Below are positions 1,576-8,702 of a stretch of DNA of 9,261 nucleotides, one piece after another. The notes under the pieces are model-generated. The model had not been told where the DNA came from. It saw only the letters and a program-made list of their open reading frames with translations, and did no database searches. Both the position numbers and the translations under genes were made by a program. Origin of the DNA: Candidatus Eiseniibacteriota bacterium. Its GTDB lineage: Bacteria; JAFGKV01. Position 1 is the first letter of the stretch, and the number at the start of each line of letters is the position of its first letter. The DNA lies in assembly GCA_025453925.1 (NCBI GenBank), contig JALOPK010000123.1, positions 1-9,261 on the forward strand, written 5' to 3'.

Positions 1576-1865
1576 CACGACCTCAGGGCGAGGGGTGGTC
1601 CTCCCGAGGGATTCGACTGCACGACTGCAAGGAACGGCCCCAATTCTGTCGGGTCAAGCGGGGGGAATCGGGGCGGGTCTGCAGCGTTTCCCTCGCCGTC
1701 CCCAGCTTGGCAAGTGTGCCCTGCACGGGCAGCGGCTCTTGGGGGTCAGGGCCAGGCAGGTGACAGCCTCCCGACGATGGAGCGCCATGGGTTCGAATCA
1801 CACTCACGAGAAGACCATCGGGGCATATGTCCCCCGAAGGCCGGCAAAACGCGGCCTGGCCGGGC

Positions 1866-1972
1866 CGAAGGCAGGCACGGACGGCACTATTCTAACATTA
1901 GAATAGTTGGGTGTGGGCCCCGGCTACGCCGGCTGCGGGGCATCACCGGCCAGACGCCTCGGCGGGTGTCGG
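1866..1972 (+). repeat. Dispersed structured repeat, copy A (three hairpins)
   Basis: This is the partner of copy B at 3822-3930, in the same orientation. Positions 1866-1907 match 3822-3863 with 38 of 42 identities, and 1934-1951 match 3892-3909 exactly (18 nt). Three hairpins can be drawn. H1 is ACTATTCTAA (1886-1895) with TTAGAATAGT (1898-1907), a perfect 10-bp stem. H2 is CCGGC (1920-1924) with GCCGG (1928-1932). H3 is GACGCCT (1953-1959), loop CGGC, GGGTGTC (1964-1970), counting two G.U pairs. Pairing is kept in copy B although stem bases differ. It could be a structured RNA, a transcription-factor operator (H1 only) or a miniature mobile element with hairpin ends. It contains no coding sequence. 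Confidence 0.8.
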
Positions 1973-2044
1973 GGATCGTCGCGGCGTGTCCCTAGGAGCC
2001 AGTCCCTTGACAGATGCTGCCTTGAAGTTGACAACTTGCCAACG

Positions 2045-2061
2045 TGCCAAGACCGGCCCTG
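2045..2061 (-). repeat. Possible inverted flank, left copy
   Basis: TGCCAAGACCGGCCCTG resembles the reverse complement of 3696-3714 (14 matches over 17 aligned positions with a 2-nt gap). The pair brackets the zinc-finger/DUF1579-like gene in inverted orientation. The match is short and could be chance. Confidence 0.3.
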
Positions 2062-2085
2062 ATACTTCATCGATGCCCTCTGTCT

Positions 2086-3318
2086 CTAGTGGTTTTGACC
2101 TCCGCGGCGGACGGAACTAACGGCGTAGGGGGTCCAGCCCTGTTCCCCTGCCATTTCCGCCCGGACGTCCAGGCCCTCCTGCGGCCGGAATTGCCACAGC
2201 AACCGAAAGGCATCCTCCTGATCCACCGGGCGGAAATCGATCCCTCGCCCGCCGTCCACACTCCGGCCGCGCAAGTCGGTGGACTGGCCGGGGACGGTCA
2301 GCACGATCAGCCGGTACTGCTGCAAATCCGGCACCCAGGTGAGGAATACTTCCCCTTCCAGGGTCCGGCCATCGGCGTAATGGGAACTCTCCGTCATCCG
2401 GTACCAGGTGCCGCCAAAGAGCGGCTCCACGCTGATCTCACCGGTGACGGCGACGTTGTTCTCCTGGCCCTGCGTCTCCCACTGACCGGCCAGGAAGGCC
2501 GCCGCGCGAAGCCCGCTCTTGACCGCGCCGGCCGCGGCCGGCGGGACTCCGGAACCGGCGGGCGGGCTGGCCGCTCCCTGGCGGACCCGGCTCTCGGACA
2601 GGCGGTTCCACCCCCCACTGCTCTGTTGCTCGATGGACATATCCAAGCCGGTACCGGGCAGGATCTTCCAGACCAGGCGCAATGACTCCTGGCCTACGAC
2701 CGCCAGGGCGAGGGTCCGGCCGTCTCCGCCGGCCGGCCCGCGCAGCACCACGGCCTGGCCGCTGCCCGCAAACTCCAGCATGAAATACCCTTTCGCGTCG
2801 GGCTCGTAGGTCAGGGCGATCAGGCAGTCGTCCGCCCGGCCGTCGGGGTACCGGGAGGCTTCCTGGAACAGCAGCCAGGTCCCCTCCAGGCAGGATCTCA
2901 CCGAGTAGGTCCCGGTGACTATATCCGTCCCCTTGGTATGCCGCAACGCCCACGTCCCGCCATCCATGAAGGCCAGCGGTTGGAGCGCATGCCGGATGGC
3001 CTCCAGGTTCTGTTGCCGCTGCTCGGCCGCCCTCTTGGCCAAGGTTCCCGCCGGCAGCCGTCCCGTCCCGTTGCAGGCCAGGCAGGTCATCCCCTGGCCA
3101 TTGCATCCCGGGCAGATTCCGCTGCCGCGGCAGCTGGGGCATCCGGGCCCGGGCGCCCGGGTCGCGTACAAACCGGAGCAGGTGTTGCACTTACCGATGA
3201 ACGGCCAGAAGCAGCGGCCGCAGCCGACCCGCCCCGTCCCCTTGCAGGCGGGGCACACATCGGCCAAGACCACTGTCGCAACCAGTGACATGACAAGGAG
3301 CAACAACGGAATCCGCAT
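2086..3318 (-). CDS. Exported protein: DnaJ-type CxxC cluster plus two tandem DUF1579-like domains
   Basis: A 410-residue protein. Residues 1-19 form a clear signal peptide, with cleavage likely after VVLA. Immediately after come six CxxC pairs (C22/25, 33/36, 44/47, 60/63, 69/72, 79/82), several in the CxxCxGxG form of the DnaJ central zinc finger. There is no J-domain. A short polar helical stretch (92-112) follows. Two copies of one beta-rich domain come next: about 113-247 and, after a Pro/Ala/Gly linker (248-267), about 270-405. The copies align at GTW (146, 303), YxDGR (157-161, 314-318), LTxxPD (169-174, 326-331) and LxWxxxPxxGLD (216-226, 373-384). These resemble DUF1579-type beta-barrels (inference). 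The start at 3318 has GGAGG 5 nt upstream; a longer frame to 3369 would hide the signal peptide. Zinc binding and the ligand of the barrels are untested inferences. Direct repeats (copies A and B) flank the gene. Confidence 0.85.
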   Translation of the reverse strand: MRIPLLLLVMSLVATVVLADVCPACKGTGRVGCGRCFWPFIGKCNTCSGLYATRAPGPGCPSCRGSGICPGCNGQGMTCLACNGTGRLPAGTLAKRAAEQRQQNLEAIRHALQPLAFMDGGTWALRHTKGTDIVTGTYSVRSCLEGTWLLFQEASRYPDGRADDCLIALTYEPDAKGYFMLEFAGSGQAVVLRGPAGGDGRTLALAVVGQESLRLVWKILPGTGLDMSIEQQSSGGWNRLSESRVRQGAASPPAGSGVPPAAAGAVKSGLRAAAFLAGQWETQGQENNVAVTGEISVEPLFGGTWYRMTESSHYADGRTLEGEVFLTWVPDLQQYRLIVLTVPGQSTDLRGRSVDGGRGIDFRPVDQEDAFRLLWQFRPQEGLDVRAEMAGEQGWTPYAVSSVRRGGQNH

Positions 3319-3323
3319 CCGAA

Positions 3324-3328
3324 CCTCC
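3324..3328 (-). promoter_or_regulatory. Ribosome binding site of the CxxC/DUF1579-like gene
   Basis: On the minus strand, GGAGG lies 5 nt before the ATG at 3318. It supports the start that places the signal peptide at the N-terminus. Confidence 0.75.
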
Positions 3329-3695
3329 CTCCCGGGGAGTGAACTGATCACTCCGCCTGGGTACCGCATTTACTGACAGCAATTGCTGATAGGGATTTGC
3401 ATTTCGACAGAGCAGGGCGTCTTGGCGCCATGAGCGGCTCTCCTCTGGGGAAATCACGGATAACCATGCGTCCCACGGTTTTCAACTTCACTGTAAATGG
3501 GCGGCGAGGCGGTGTCAAGGCGCGAGGGGCGTGAAGAGCACAGAGCCTCATTCCCGGCGGCGATCGGGCCGGTGCTGTTGCGGGTGCCGGCCAAAGAGGG
3601 GAATTCGATGCATCGGACATGGTTGGTCACCTTCATCTCTCACCCTCTCGCTTTGACGTGCTGGAAGAGCCGTGTTGTCCAAAGTGAAGGAGCAC

Positions 3696-3714
3696 CAGGG
3701 GTCAGGCCTTGACA
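3696..3714 (+). repeat. Possible inverted flank, right copy
   Basis: CAGGGGTCAGGCCTTGACA is related in reverse complement to 2045-2061. From memory, similar GGGGTCAGG-CTTGACA sequences occur beside REP-associated Y1 transposase genes; no transposase is present here. The TTGACA at 3709-3714 has no matching -10, so I do not call a promoter. Confidence 0.3.
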
Positions 3715-3821
3715 TGTGACAGGCCCGTTGTGAAAGAGGGCCGTGGATTCGATTGGGAATCTCCGGGCACGCATTGGGCCACAAGGGCTCCGAGGGTCGG
3801 TAGAGTGGGTCGCGACTAGGT

Positions 3822-3930
3822 CGAAAGCAGGCACGGACCGCACTATTCTAACCTTGGAATAGTGGGCAAAATCGGCGCCGTCTACGCCGAATGCGGGGCA
3901 TCACCGGCCGGGCTCCTCGGCAGGAGTCGG
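3822..3930 (+). repeat. Dispersed structured repeat, copy B (three hairpins)
   Basis: Partner of copy A, with the same order of parts. H1 is ACTATTCTAA (3842-3851) with TTGGAATAGT (3854-3863): ten pairs including one T.G that is a wobble in RNA, plus an outer C3841-G3864. H2 is TCGGCG (3872-3877) with CGCCGA (3885-3890). H3 is GGCTCCT (3911-3917), loop CGGC (3918-3921), AGGAGTC (3922-3928), with one G.U. Relative to copy A, H3 pair 4 is T3914-A3925 against G1956.T1967, and the H2 closing pair is T3872-A3890 against C1920-G1932. A 12-bp palindrome (CAGTCCGGACTG, 3931-3942) follows directly. The copy lies about 500 nt upstream of the start of one divergent gene and 470 nt before the other. Confidence 0.8.
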
Positions 3931-4032
3931 CAGTCCGGACTGAACCCCTAACCCTGAACCCCGGAACCTGCGGGCGGAGCGAGCCGGCAGTCGGCTGTCG
4001 GCTGGCAGAGAGCAGAAAGCTGAGAGCTGCCG
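3931..4032. repeat. Palindrome and degenerate low-complexity repeats
   Basis: A perfect 12-bp palindrome CAGTCCGGACTG lies at 3931-3942. The unit TGAACCCC occurs at 3941-3948 and 3955-3962, separated by TAACCC and followed by GGAACC. TCGGCTG occurs twice in tandem (3991-3997, 3998-4004), enclosed by CGGCAG (3985-3990) and CTGCCG (4027-4032). This looks like decayed simple-sequence intergenic DNA. I see no function. Confidence 0.5.
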
Positions 4033-4400: not shown

Positions 4401-5939
4401 GTGACAAAGCATGTGCTCTGCGCTGCTGTCCTCCTCGCTGCCCCGTTTCCGGCTGCCAGCCAGCAGTCGTTTGAGGGATTGACGCTGGTATCACCGAGCT
4501 TCTCAACGAGCACCTACCTGATTGACATGGCCGGCTCCACCGTGCGCACCTGGCATGGCGCCGAGAACCCGGCGAGCACCGCCTATCTGCTGGAGGACGG
4601 CTCACTGCTGAGACCGTGCATAGACCCTGACGGGCACTTCCCGGGAGCTGGAGCGGGAGGGCGGGTGCAGCGGATCGATGCGGATGACAGCGTCATCTGG
4701 GATTTCACCTTCTCGGACTCAACCCATCAGCAGCACCACGACATTAGACCACTTTCCAATGGCAACATCCTGTTGATCGCTTGGGAGAAAAAAACCATCG
4801 AGGAGGCCCAAGCAGCAGGTCGGCAGGACATAGACAACGAGATGTGGCCTACGCTCATCGTGGAGGTTGAGCCCCAGGAGCCCACAGGGGGAAACATCGT
4901 ATGGGAGTGGCATCTATGGGACCACCTCATTCAAGACGTTGATCCGGAGAAGTCCAACTACGGAACCGTTGCAGAGCATCCGGAACTTATGGACATCAAC
5001 TTTGGCGATGTTGGACTTGGACACCAGGGAATTGGCGACTGGATCCATGCGAATGCTGTCGACTACAGTGAAGAGCTTGATCAGATTGTCTTTAGTTCAC
5101 GTAGCATGAATGAATTCTACGTCATTGATCACAGCACTACAATAGATGAAGCTGCGGGTCACACAGGTGGAAACGCTGGAAGGGGTGGGGATCTTCTCTA
5201 TCGCTGGGGGAATCCTCAGGTGTACGATAGGGGAACTCCTGCCGACCAGCAGTTCCAGGTTGTTCACGGCGCGAACTGGATTGATCGAGGTCTGCCAGGT
5301 GAAGGTAACATCCTCGTTTTCAACAACGGAGACCGGTCGGGCACGGCGAACGACTATTCTGTTGTTGAGGAAATCGTCCCTCCTCTTGAATCGAGCCTAC
5401 GCTACTACATAGCACCGGGTGCTGCCTTTGGCCCCTCTGGTCCGGCGTGGACGTACGGTGGACCTGGCGGCTTCTACGGTGGGCCGGTGCAGTGCGGCGC
5501 CTATCGATTGCCAAACGGGAACACCCTCGTCTGCAAGACAAACACCGGCTACGTATTCGAAGTCACGCATTCGGGAACGACGGTGTGGGACTACGACATT
5601 CCGGGGCGTATCGCGCGAGCGCCGCGCTACTGGGTTGATCTCAGGGCGACTCTGGCGGGAGGGGCCCTGGAGCTGGAATGGCAATCGCGGCCCGGAGTTG
5701 CGGCCTATTGGGTATATGGAGCCGAGAATCAAACGTACTTTGCACCCGGTCTCGTACCCCTATTCGCGGGAAGGGTCGCCATCGTGCCCTCCGGGATCAC
5801 CACGTGGTTCAGTCCCGCAGGCATAGGCGACCCGGCACACAACTGGACGTACATGGTCATGGCCGTGGACGAAGGCGAGAGCGTACTCGCCAGATCGAAC
5901 CGAGTGGGCGAGCAGGAGTTCGCATTCGGCACGCCATAG
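4401..5939 (+). CDS. Secreted arylsulfotransferase (ASST) family protein with FN3-like C-terminal module
   Basis: A 512-residue protein starting at GTG. Residues 1-20 are a signal peptide. Residues about 24-410 resemble bacterial ASST-family propellers. Landmarks are V89-Q-R-I-D-A-D-D..W100, H112-H113-D-I..L118-S-N-G-N-I, W173-D-H-L, H217-A-N-A-V-D, SSRSMNEFYVIDHS (232-245), LLYRWGNP (265-272), Q286-V-V-H289-G, LVFNNG (305-310) and LPNGNTLVC (370-378). ASST enzymes are periplasmic, move sulfuryl groups between phenolic compounds without PAPS, and use active-site histidines; H112/H113, H217 and H289 are candidates. Residues 412-512 form a separate FN3-like module homologous to the end of the next gene. 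GC falls to about 52 % over the catalytic part (4741-5400) and is about 64 % over 5581-5939, suggesting a chimeric origin. Family assignment is firm at fold level. Enzymatic sulfotransfer is inferred; many family members are uncharacterised. Confidence 0.85.
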   Translation: MTKHVLCAAVLLAAPFPAASQQSFEGLTLVSPSFSTSTYLIDMAGSTVRTWHGAENPASTAYLLEDGSLLRPCIDPDGHFPGAGAGGRVQRIDADDSVIWDFTFSDSTHQQHHDIRPLSNGNILLIAWEKKTIEEAQAAGRQDIDNEMWPTLIVEVEPQEPTGGNIVWEWHLWDHLIQDVDPEKSNYGTVAEHPELMDINFGDVGLGHQGIGDWIHANAVDYSEELDQIVFSSRSMNEFYVIDHSTTIDEAAGHTGGNAGRGGDLLYRWGNPQVYDRGTPADQQFQVVHGANWIDRGLPGEGNILVFNNGDRSGTANDYSVVEEIVPPLESSLRYYIAPGAAFGPSGPAWTYGGPGGFYGGPVQCGAYRLPNGNTLVCKTNTGYVFEVTHSGTTVWDYDIPGRIARAPRYWVDLRATLAGGALELEWQSRPGVAAYWVYGAENQTYFAPGLVPLFAGRVAIVPSGITTWFSPAGIGDPAHNWTYMVMAVDEGESVLARSNRVGEQEFAFGTP

Positions 5940-6362: not shown

Positions 6363-7769
6363 ATGTGCGGACTGATCGTGAATTCGGGCATCCCCAACCT
6401 AGCGTGTGCCGTCGCCGCGGTCGGTGCCCTGCTGTCGGTCGTGGCGCCTGCGCCAGCTGCAGCGCTCCAGGTCGAGACTGTTGAATCGGAGTCTATGGTG
6501 TGGTCCACCTCGGTCAAGGTCGACTCCGCATCCTACCCGCGTATCGCGTATGTCGACCTCCACCTCAACGACCTGCGTTATGCTTACCGCGATGGGGACG
6601 GGTGGCATGCGGAGATAGTCTGCGATTGGGCGGTGGCCTCGTCGGCCGGTGTGGCGCTCGACGTGGGTGGCGCGTCCCACCTGTGCTGCTATCAGTCCGT
6701 GCCCGGCTATTATGAACGGCTTCTCTACTTCCCCCCGACCGAGGCCGGATGGGACCAGGAGGTCGTCGACGCTTCCCACGGATCCGCATCCCTGGCGTTT
6801 GACGGGTCCGAAAACCCCTGTCTGAGCTACCTGAGCTACGGAACGTTCCCCGATCCTGACCGTGACCTCCGTTTCGCCCAGAGGGACGCCACGGGGTGGC
6901 TCACGGAGACCGTTGACAGCGAAGGGGATGTGGGTTTGTACACATCCCTTGCCTTCGATGATCAGGGGAGGCCCCACATCAGCTATTTCGACAACTCGCA
7001 GGGTGATCTGGCCTACGCCTGCCGGACAGCACTCGGGTGGACGTGCATCCGCGTCGACGTCACCGGCACGGTGGGGCAGCACACGTCGCTGGCACTCGAC
7101 CCCGAGGGTTTCCCGCATGTCAGCTACTACGATGTCACGAACTCGTCGCTGAAGTACGCGCATCAGGACGCCGTGGGGTGGCACATCGACATCGTCGACA
7201 ACAACGGCGACGTGGGCCAATTCTCGTCCATCGCCCTCGATGGTAATGGACTGCCCCACGTCAGCTACTACGATGCAACCGACCAGAATCTGAAGTACGC
7301 GTGCAAGCGCGAAGATGGCTGGCATGTGCGCACACTGGATAGCGAAGCAACCATCGGATTGGGTACTTCGATCGCTCTCTCGACAGCCGGATTGGCCCAC
7401 ATCAGCTACGGGGGCTTCCCCGAGTCGGTGGTCAAGTACGCCTATGTCGACGACATCACCATCTCCGGCGAACTGGGGATGGGCCTGATCACACTGCGAT
7501 GGGACGCGGTGCCCGGCGCGCATGAATACTGGGTGTACGGTGCAGCCAATCTGCCCTGGTTCCAGCCGGGGGCTGGCCCGGCCTATGCGCATCGCGTGGC
7601 CGTGCTCCCGTCAGGAGCGACCGAATGGTCAAACGGCGCCGGTGTGGGAGACCCGCTGGAGCAGTGGACCTATCTCCTCCGAGTGATGCGCGCGGGCGAG
7701 GCGCAGCTTGCCATCTCCAACCGGATAGGCGAACACGACTTCGCCGTGGAAAACCCGGACTCCCCGTGA
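6363..7769 (+). CDS. Secreted seven-repeat beta-propeller-like protein with FN3-like C-terminal module
   Basis: A 468-residue protein. Residues about 11-34 form the signal peptide (cleavage near PAAA-LQ). Seven successive units of 43-49 residues follow: 35-80, 81-129, 130-178, 179-225, 226-272, 273-319 and 320-362. The best-kept units (4th to 6th) follow GW-x-x-x-x-VD-x-x-G-x-VG-x-x-[TS]S-[LI]-A-[FL]-D-x-x-G-x-PH-[IV]-SY-[FY]-D, then L-x-YA. The count and length fit a seven-bladed beta-propeller; this is inference from repeat geometry. Units 2 and 3 are the most diverged and carry extra cysteines (C87, C108, C109). Residues 363-468 are the FN3-like module shared with the ASST protein (YWVYGA, RVA, PSG-x-T-x-W, GDP, WTY, SNRIGE). 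Such repeats are common in exported proteins of unknown role; ligand binding or surface adhesion is possible. No enzyme motif is visible. It follows the ASST gene by 423 nt in the same direction. Confidence 0.85.
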   Translation: MCGLIVNSGIPNLACAVAAVGALLSVVAPAPAAALQVETVESESMVWSTSVKVDSASYPRIAYVDLHLNDLRYAYRDGDGWHAEIVCDWAVASSAGVALDVGGASHLCCYQSVPGYYERLLYFPPTEAGWDQEVVDASHGSASLAFDGSENPCLSYLSYGTFPDPDRDLRFAQRDATGWLTETVDSEGDVGLYTSLAFDDQGRPHISYFDNSQGDLAYACRTALGWTCIRVDVTGTVGQHTSLALDPEGFPHVSYYDVTNSSLKYAHQDAVGWHIDIVDNNGDVGQFSSIALDGNGLPHVSYYDATDQNLKYACKREDGWHVRTLDSEATIGLGTSIALSTAGLAHISYGGFPESVVKYAYVDDITISGELGMGLITLRWDAVPGAHEYWVYGAANLPWFQPGAGPAYAHRVAVLPSGATEWSNGAGVGDPLEQWTYLLRVMRAGEAQLAISNRIGEHDFAVENPDSP

Positions 7770-8225: not shown

Positions 8226-8702
8226 TCACAACTCCCAATCGAACTCCCCTACCCTGTCGGACTCGGCCGACGTGTTGCCGTTGGCGTCGACGGCTTTCAC
8301 CAAGTAGATGAAGTTGACCGACGGATTGAACGACAGAGTGTCGGCATGGCTGGTGCCAGAGGTAACGGCAAGCGATTCCGAGGACGTGGGCACAAAATGG
8401 GCCGTTTCACTGCGACACACGATGTAGTAGTCCACCGTCTCCGGCGCACCGGTTGTGTCGGTCGTCACGGCCGACCATTGGAGCACAAGCAGACTCCCTT
8501 CCCAACCTGCCGCGCTCCGGATCAATCCTCGTCCCATCAGGGTCGTCCCGACATCCCTCCTCGACTCCCGCCACGACGAGCTCCGCGTAGCGTTGCCAGA
8601 CCCCAATCCGGCGGAATAGCACGACGCCGGACACCCTTCGGGATCATGGGAAGTTTGCCAAACTGCGCACGCTGTTTGTTCTTGCAGCCCGTGCCTCGCC
8701 AC
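8226..8702 (-). pseudogene. Orphan C-terminal FN3-like module, remnant of a larger secreted protein
   Basis: The frame encodes 158 residues from a GTG at 8702, but only residues 60-158 (nt 8226-8525) look like real protein. That part is an FN3-like domain with L73-x-L-Q-W-S-A-V, D91-Y-Y-I-V, H102-F-V-P, LVKAVDANGNTSAES (134-148) and the ending SDRVGEFDWEL. This is the same kind of terminal module that closes the ASST and propeller proteins (SNRVGE, SNRIGE). The first 59 residues are Arg/Ser/Cys-rich, lack a signal peptide and resemble no exported protein. In its intact form this module sits at the end of long secreted proteins, so I read the frame as the 3' end of a gene whose 5' part was lost when the sequence beyond 8525 was rearranged. 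A GAGG 7 nt before the GTG leaves a short expressed protein possible. Confidence 0.6.

Follow-up and report, generated by a model that had tools for sequence, protein, structure and literature searches.

Two copies of a repeat lie on the plus strand of the window, i.e., the whole stretch of 9,261 nt that was analysed, at positions 1866-1972 and 3822-3930. The two copies of the preliminary description are confirmed: they are homologous and in the same orientation, and they align in blocks of 95 nt at 73% and 57 nt at 84% identity. The homology reaches further left than was described there, to about 1742 and 3698, and is weaker in that part. The left extension of copy 1 (1742-1865, plus strand), taken from the two-copy alignment, is weakly conserved, starts with GGGGTCAGG and has an nhmmer match from 1787. 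That of copy 2 (3698-3821, plus strand), from the same alignment, starts with GGGGTCAGGCCTTG and has the TCAGG motif that also marks both ends of a sister-genus Y1_Tnp element. Between the two copies is a gene on the minus strand (2086-3369), with a Cys-rich N-terminus and a DUF1579-like C-terminal part in its product. No other repeats of a comparable kind are found in the window.

Three genomes were compared, all of them fragmented Fermentibacteria MAGs with genes called by our own codon-usage method: that of the window (G000; 82% complete, 502 contigs), one of the same genus (G001) and one of a sister genus (G002). No homologue of the Cys-rich gene is present in either G001 or G002, and the gene may be a recent acquisition with repeats at both flanks. 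A covariance model for the long repeat, built from seven long copies, matches the two window copies with 105.6 and 108 bits, respectively, and detects about four strong copies in G000, at least seven in G001 and none in G002. The 107-nt copies of the window are members of an intergenic repeat, 110 nt or more in length, in which a palindrome termed H1 is embedded; the repeat is rarer than the palindrome itself. With H1 alone present at 63 and 74 sites in G000 and G001, the original count of two copies was far too low.

The long copies open with TCAGG, several of them with TCAGG[C/T]ATTGC, a motif also found in G002, where it forms inverted ends around an IS200-like Y1_Tnp gene. At 33813-34820 of contig C187 in that genome (L205), inverted GGGGTCAGGCATTGCTAAC is found on both sides of the Y1_Tnp gene, and this motif also opens several long repeats in G000 and G001. 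A link of the long repeat to a mobile element is plausible because its left end matches these inverted ends in the sister genus, and the long copies are possibly decayed relatives of a Y1_Tnp-type element, now dispersed as intergenic repeats. Several copies also have an ATG after a GGAGG-like sequence; a paralogous gene start was considered and rejected, as the reading frame is not common to the copies.

The H1 core is a 22-base palindrome, ACTATTCT[A/C]A-NN-T[T/G]AGAATAGT, made up of two 10-bp half-sites (ACTATTCTMA) with dyad symmetry around two free bases. In copy 1 it reads ACTATTCTAA-CA-TTAGAATAGT (1886-1907, no strand assigned), a perfect core with arms that are not extended, and in copy 2 ACTATTCTAA-CC-TTGGAATAGT (3842-3863, no strand assigned), with one core change. 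The H1 sites were counted with the pattern CTATTCT-N{0,30}-AGAATAG, which has no match in G002 and for which control patterns gave 0 sites. The spacing between CTATTCT and AGAATAG is 6 nt in every listed site. The half-site TTAGAATAGT occurs 96 times and the reversed pattern not once, and exact half-sites are essentially confined to partners within the 22-bp palindrome. In the fetched loci, which were chosen around the sites, H1 ranks first in count among all palindromes in both G000 and G001. Nearly all of the examined G000 sites (60/61) lie between predicted genes, even though coding sequence makes up 77% of the loci.

The palindrome was not found in viral contigs, and no convincing motif is common to its surroundings. 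No Rfam family was matched, and among the full-text literature matches to the two half-site 10-mers none is recognisable from its title or abstract as dealing with such a repeat. With its many further copies, the element is thus borne out as unrecognised, dispersed, intergenic and capable of forming a hairpin. Genes with a C-terminal secretion-like domain make up 9/104 of the genes facing a site vs 8/259 of non-adjacent genes; a link of the palindrome to the 3′ ends of such genes is weak and was rejected. Two occurrences outside the three genomes should be noted. A single exact core match in a Prolixibacteraceae contig of 34% GC (L128:1190-1211) lies between A7 and T7 and is probably a chance AT-rich terminator. 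The palindrome is also present in a contig binned as Anaerolineae in the same assembly as G001 (L133), possibly a misbinned Fermentibacteria contig.

Comparison of flanking genes shows seven clear and three possible orthologous gaps that have a site in both G000 and G001. The clear pairs are L067/L149, L075/L164, L099/L168, L100/L156, L102/L184, L105/L182 and L114/L170. In the ten alignments 5/200 cells differ at the 20 fixed positions of the core, and identity over the whole aligned regions is 50-61%. The distance from site to start codon is kept in several pairs (40/41, 221/217, 247/249 and 322/334 bp). The exact core sequence is thus under strong constraint. The changes that are tolerated in the core are dyad-symmetric, A9C with T14G and A1G with T22C. 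In the most variable core pair, A9-T14, the two sides change singly, giving 15 unpaired cells and one double change, and no covariation is found within the core. The dyad-symmetric tolerance and the missing core covariation point to half-sites that are read in duplex DNA, rather than to a stem.

Outside of the core the pattern is a different one. At least three further complementary bases, and up to 11, are found in 26/61 and 18/46 copies (about 40%), vs 6.5% and 4% in controls with mismatched partners. In a gap-free alignment of 61 copies, eight flanking pairs covary (0.452 vs 0.210 ± 0.023, reached in 0/500 shuffles); in any other register the arm covariation is 0.19 or less. The sequence of the extended arms differs from copy to copy, so that a single mobile parent is not their source. 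The arms form perfect Watson-Crick blocks that end abruptly, and past the first mismatch pairing is 0.24, as compared to a random 0.27. Perfect stems have been described as a product of template switching (PMC8794818), which in yeast is promoted by transcription (PMC3820800). Such perfect blocks are in line with template switching in the course of replication, a mechanism suggested by the pattern of the arms.

The explanation tentatively preferred, with slightly less than even confidence, is that H1 is a DNA dyad for a putative dimeric DNA-binding protein and that the arms are mainly a by-product of template switching. The functional unit would be the H1 palindrome and not the three-hairpin stretch in which it was first described. 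A putative protein of this Fermentibacteria genus, probably dimeric, would read the H1 half-sites by sequence, and its role would most likely be local (a block or end of transcription at gene borders) or architectural. The perfect outer arms would arise mainly at the DNA level, by replication template switching at a palindrome that is already present, and transcripts that run through a site may favour the process. The symmetric core changes and the half-site spacing of always 6 nt are consistent with a dimeric protein. Among architectural and operator dyads, Noc and MatP sites are strict dyads present in tens of copies, and CIRCE is unusually strictly conserved. H1 differs from dyads of these types in its longer and stricter core, its bias to gene ends and its matched arms, and in that its binding protein is only putative. 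However, no autoregulated gene stands out, and for an operator of a transcription factor it is unusual that a 20-bp site is so invariant at more than 60 places. Nor does a purely mutational origin of the arms require a trend with gene orientation, and such a trend exists: arms are extended in 12/20 convergent, 20/47 tandem and 1/9 divergent gaps (trend p = 0.014), i.e., the more gene ends face a site, the more often its arms are extended. Selection on a transcribed hairpin therefore stays alive as a rival.

According to that rival, H1 is part of a 3′ hairpin of the mRNA, acting as a terminator or exonuclease block, in which the palindrome is the apex read by a protein, while selection for RNA pairing maintains the basal stem. 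The strong covariation of the basal stems, the scarcity of extended stems in divergent gaps and their preference for convergent ones argue for it, as do compensated stem changes at orthologous sites, e.g., L100:4082 and L156:3598, both 25-27 nt past the stop codon. However, an extended stem is lacking in the majority of copies, some of which lie 40 bp in front of a start codon and nevertheless keep the core. Changes in the core occur without compensation. The preliminary description took G.U tolerance as a sign of a single-stranded fold, but at the ends of the H1 arms G.U is as frequent as A.C (5 and 5), and pairing falls to the random level beyond the first mismatch. A separate comparison of G.U with A.C on the sense strand comprised few mismatches. 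A T tract is absent as well, with a mean of 20% T in the 10 nt past 40 stem ends; on this ground the palindrome was rejected as an intrinsic terminator. An mRNA hairpin is rather unlikely on this evidence.

A REP-like origin is improbable. Here an enzyme of the IS200/IS605 type (TnpAREP/RAYT) would have dispersed H1, as a short palindrome in single-stranded form, and the copies would now be mostly fixed. REP and BIME elements with TnpAREP are also short, intergenic, lineage-specific palindromes that avoid divergent (promoter) gaps, and are present in tens to thousands of copies. H1 resembles them in size and placement (22 bp, tens of copies per genome, intergenic and lineage-specific), with a copy number that is low for a REP. 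A different palindrome of 24 bp in the sister genus, with 54 copies, and the match between the start of the long copies and the Y1_Tnp ends in G002 also favour a REP-like origin. In TnpAREP-associated REPs, which are palindromes of 20-50 nt, a tetranucleotide that is mostly GTAG is conserved directly 5′ of the palindrome (PMC8266576). Such REPs also have a tnpAREP gene close by some of the copies (REPtron). However, GTAG is found within 15 nt of 2.3% of H1 arms vs a background of 2.8%, and GGAG, GTGG and CTAC show no enrichment near the palindrome. Three Y1_Tnp loci in G000 (82% complete) and five in G001, fetched with up to 1.5 kb per side, do not contain the palindrome at up to 6 mismatches. 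The closest Y1_Tnp pair of G000 and G001 is 35% identical, though the palindrome is identical in the two genomes. H1 is also unlike a REP in having its fixed core inside and its variable arms outside, and in site positions that are conserved between two species. With GTAG, a linked Y1 transposase and a well-conserved common one all absent, H1 was rejected as the REP of resident Y1 transposases.

The main reading of the preliminary description, a three-hairpin structured RNA about 107 nt long, is already largely refuted and can be considered very improbable indeed. H1 and H3 (1953-1970 in copy 1 and 3911-3928 in copy 2, plus strand) can form in both window copies, and the pair differences given for these two hairpins are present. 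H2 does not hold up in the same way. In copy 1 it is CCGGC-TAC-GCCGG (1920-1932, plus strand), found in most long copies without covariation, and in copy 2 it is TCGGCG...CGCCGA (3872-3890, plus strand), with another left arm. The right arms share their alignment columns, whereas the left arms, at 1920-1924 and 3872-3877, occupy columns 57-61 and 51-56, respectively. The comparison of the H2 closing pairs, C1920-G1932 vs T3872-A3890, is therefore one of non-homologous pairs. Nor do differences respect pairing in general: covariation over 11 long copies from two species is 0.121 vs 0.110 ± 0.013 in shuffles, a level at which it stayed even though the alignment had been fitted to the three-hairpin structure, and seven long copies show no excess over shuffles either. 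Over the 11 copies, 65% of cells are paired in H3 and 89% in H2, and RNAalifold chooses partners for H2 and H3 other than those proposed. The stability of the whole fold of the window copies as RNA is not unusual, with z = -0.59 in copy 1 (52/200 shuffles are equally good) and z = -1.85 in copy 2. DNA-parameter folds of the same strand give similar values, and the minimum-energy fold of copy 1 differs from three simple hairpins. In Rfam the window and seven related loci gave a single sub-threshold match, to mir-1231 (25.5 bits vs a cut-off of 80), which was rejected. Essentially, the H1 palindrome alone is conserved, at the DNA level, an outcome that the preliminary description itself had named as speaking against its reading.

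Two other kinds of repeat invite comparison with the proposed protein-bound dyad. Uptake sequences of Haemophilus (USS) and Neisseria (DUS) are about 10 nt long and, as inverted pairs, are able to form hairpins at gene ends (PMC1852404). Unlike these, H1 essentially lacks lone half-sites, has a fixed pair spacing and no T tract, and numbers tens of copies vs about a thousand; a DNA uptake sequence was rejected on the near-absence of single half-sites. Bacterial stem-loop repeat families, most of them new and uncharacterised when described (Cozzuto et al. 2008, PMC2267715), are likewise dispersed in intergenic regions with a common stem-loop. In H1, unlike these families, conservation is limited to 22 bp, and the outer stem is specific to each copy yet matched.

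The 24-bp palindrome of G002, CTAGTAAATC[C/T]AT[A/G]GATTTACTAG (e.g., L232:8225 and L282:419), continues without a mismatch for 5 bp or more beyond either end in 49/50 copies examined, i.e., over at least 34 bp. Its outer arms come in a few variants (AATCT, AATAGT, AATACT, AAAAGT) and are always matched on both sides. Several copies have longer flanks in common, so that they look more like a conventional repeat, and the parallel with H1 is suggestive. Also in G002, e.g., at L225:12677, GTAG followed by GTCGGGTTAGCGCAGCGTAACCCGAC is found in many copies with the look of a canonical REP; this type is not among the top palindromes of G000. A rather unlikely but far-reaching possibility is that related Fermentibacteria genera each have an "address" palindrome of their own at 50-75 intergenic sites, and that between sister genera the sequence was swapped genome-wide while copy number and matched-arm design were kept. 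If true, a recognition system would turn over wholesale together with its protein, and its flanks would be repeatedly re-symmetrised by template switching.

Tens of exact palindromes that stay in place in two species while their neighbours drift imply that a factor acts on them in trans, throughout the genome, in a phylum that is uncultured; the palindrome is a ready bait for finding this putative binding factor. The copy-specific perfect arms form a natural test set for template switching vs compensatory selection as the source of RNA-like covariation. They also call for caution wherever a structured RNA is regarded as proven by covarying stems in a search.

Two further features of the window should be noted. 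The predicted proteins at 4413-5939, 6363-7769 and 8226-8702 all end in the same C-terminal domain, about 90 aa in length (YWVYG...RSNRVGE.DF), which has 22 matches in G000 at E ≤ 1e-20 and looks like a lineage-specific sorting domain. The intergenic stretch at 3935-4020 is of low complexity, with CCCTAACCCTGAACCCC and CGGCAGTCGGCTGTCGGCTGGCAGAG, and is found again between other genes in the genome.
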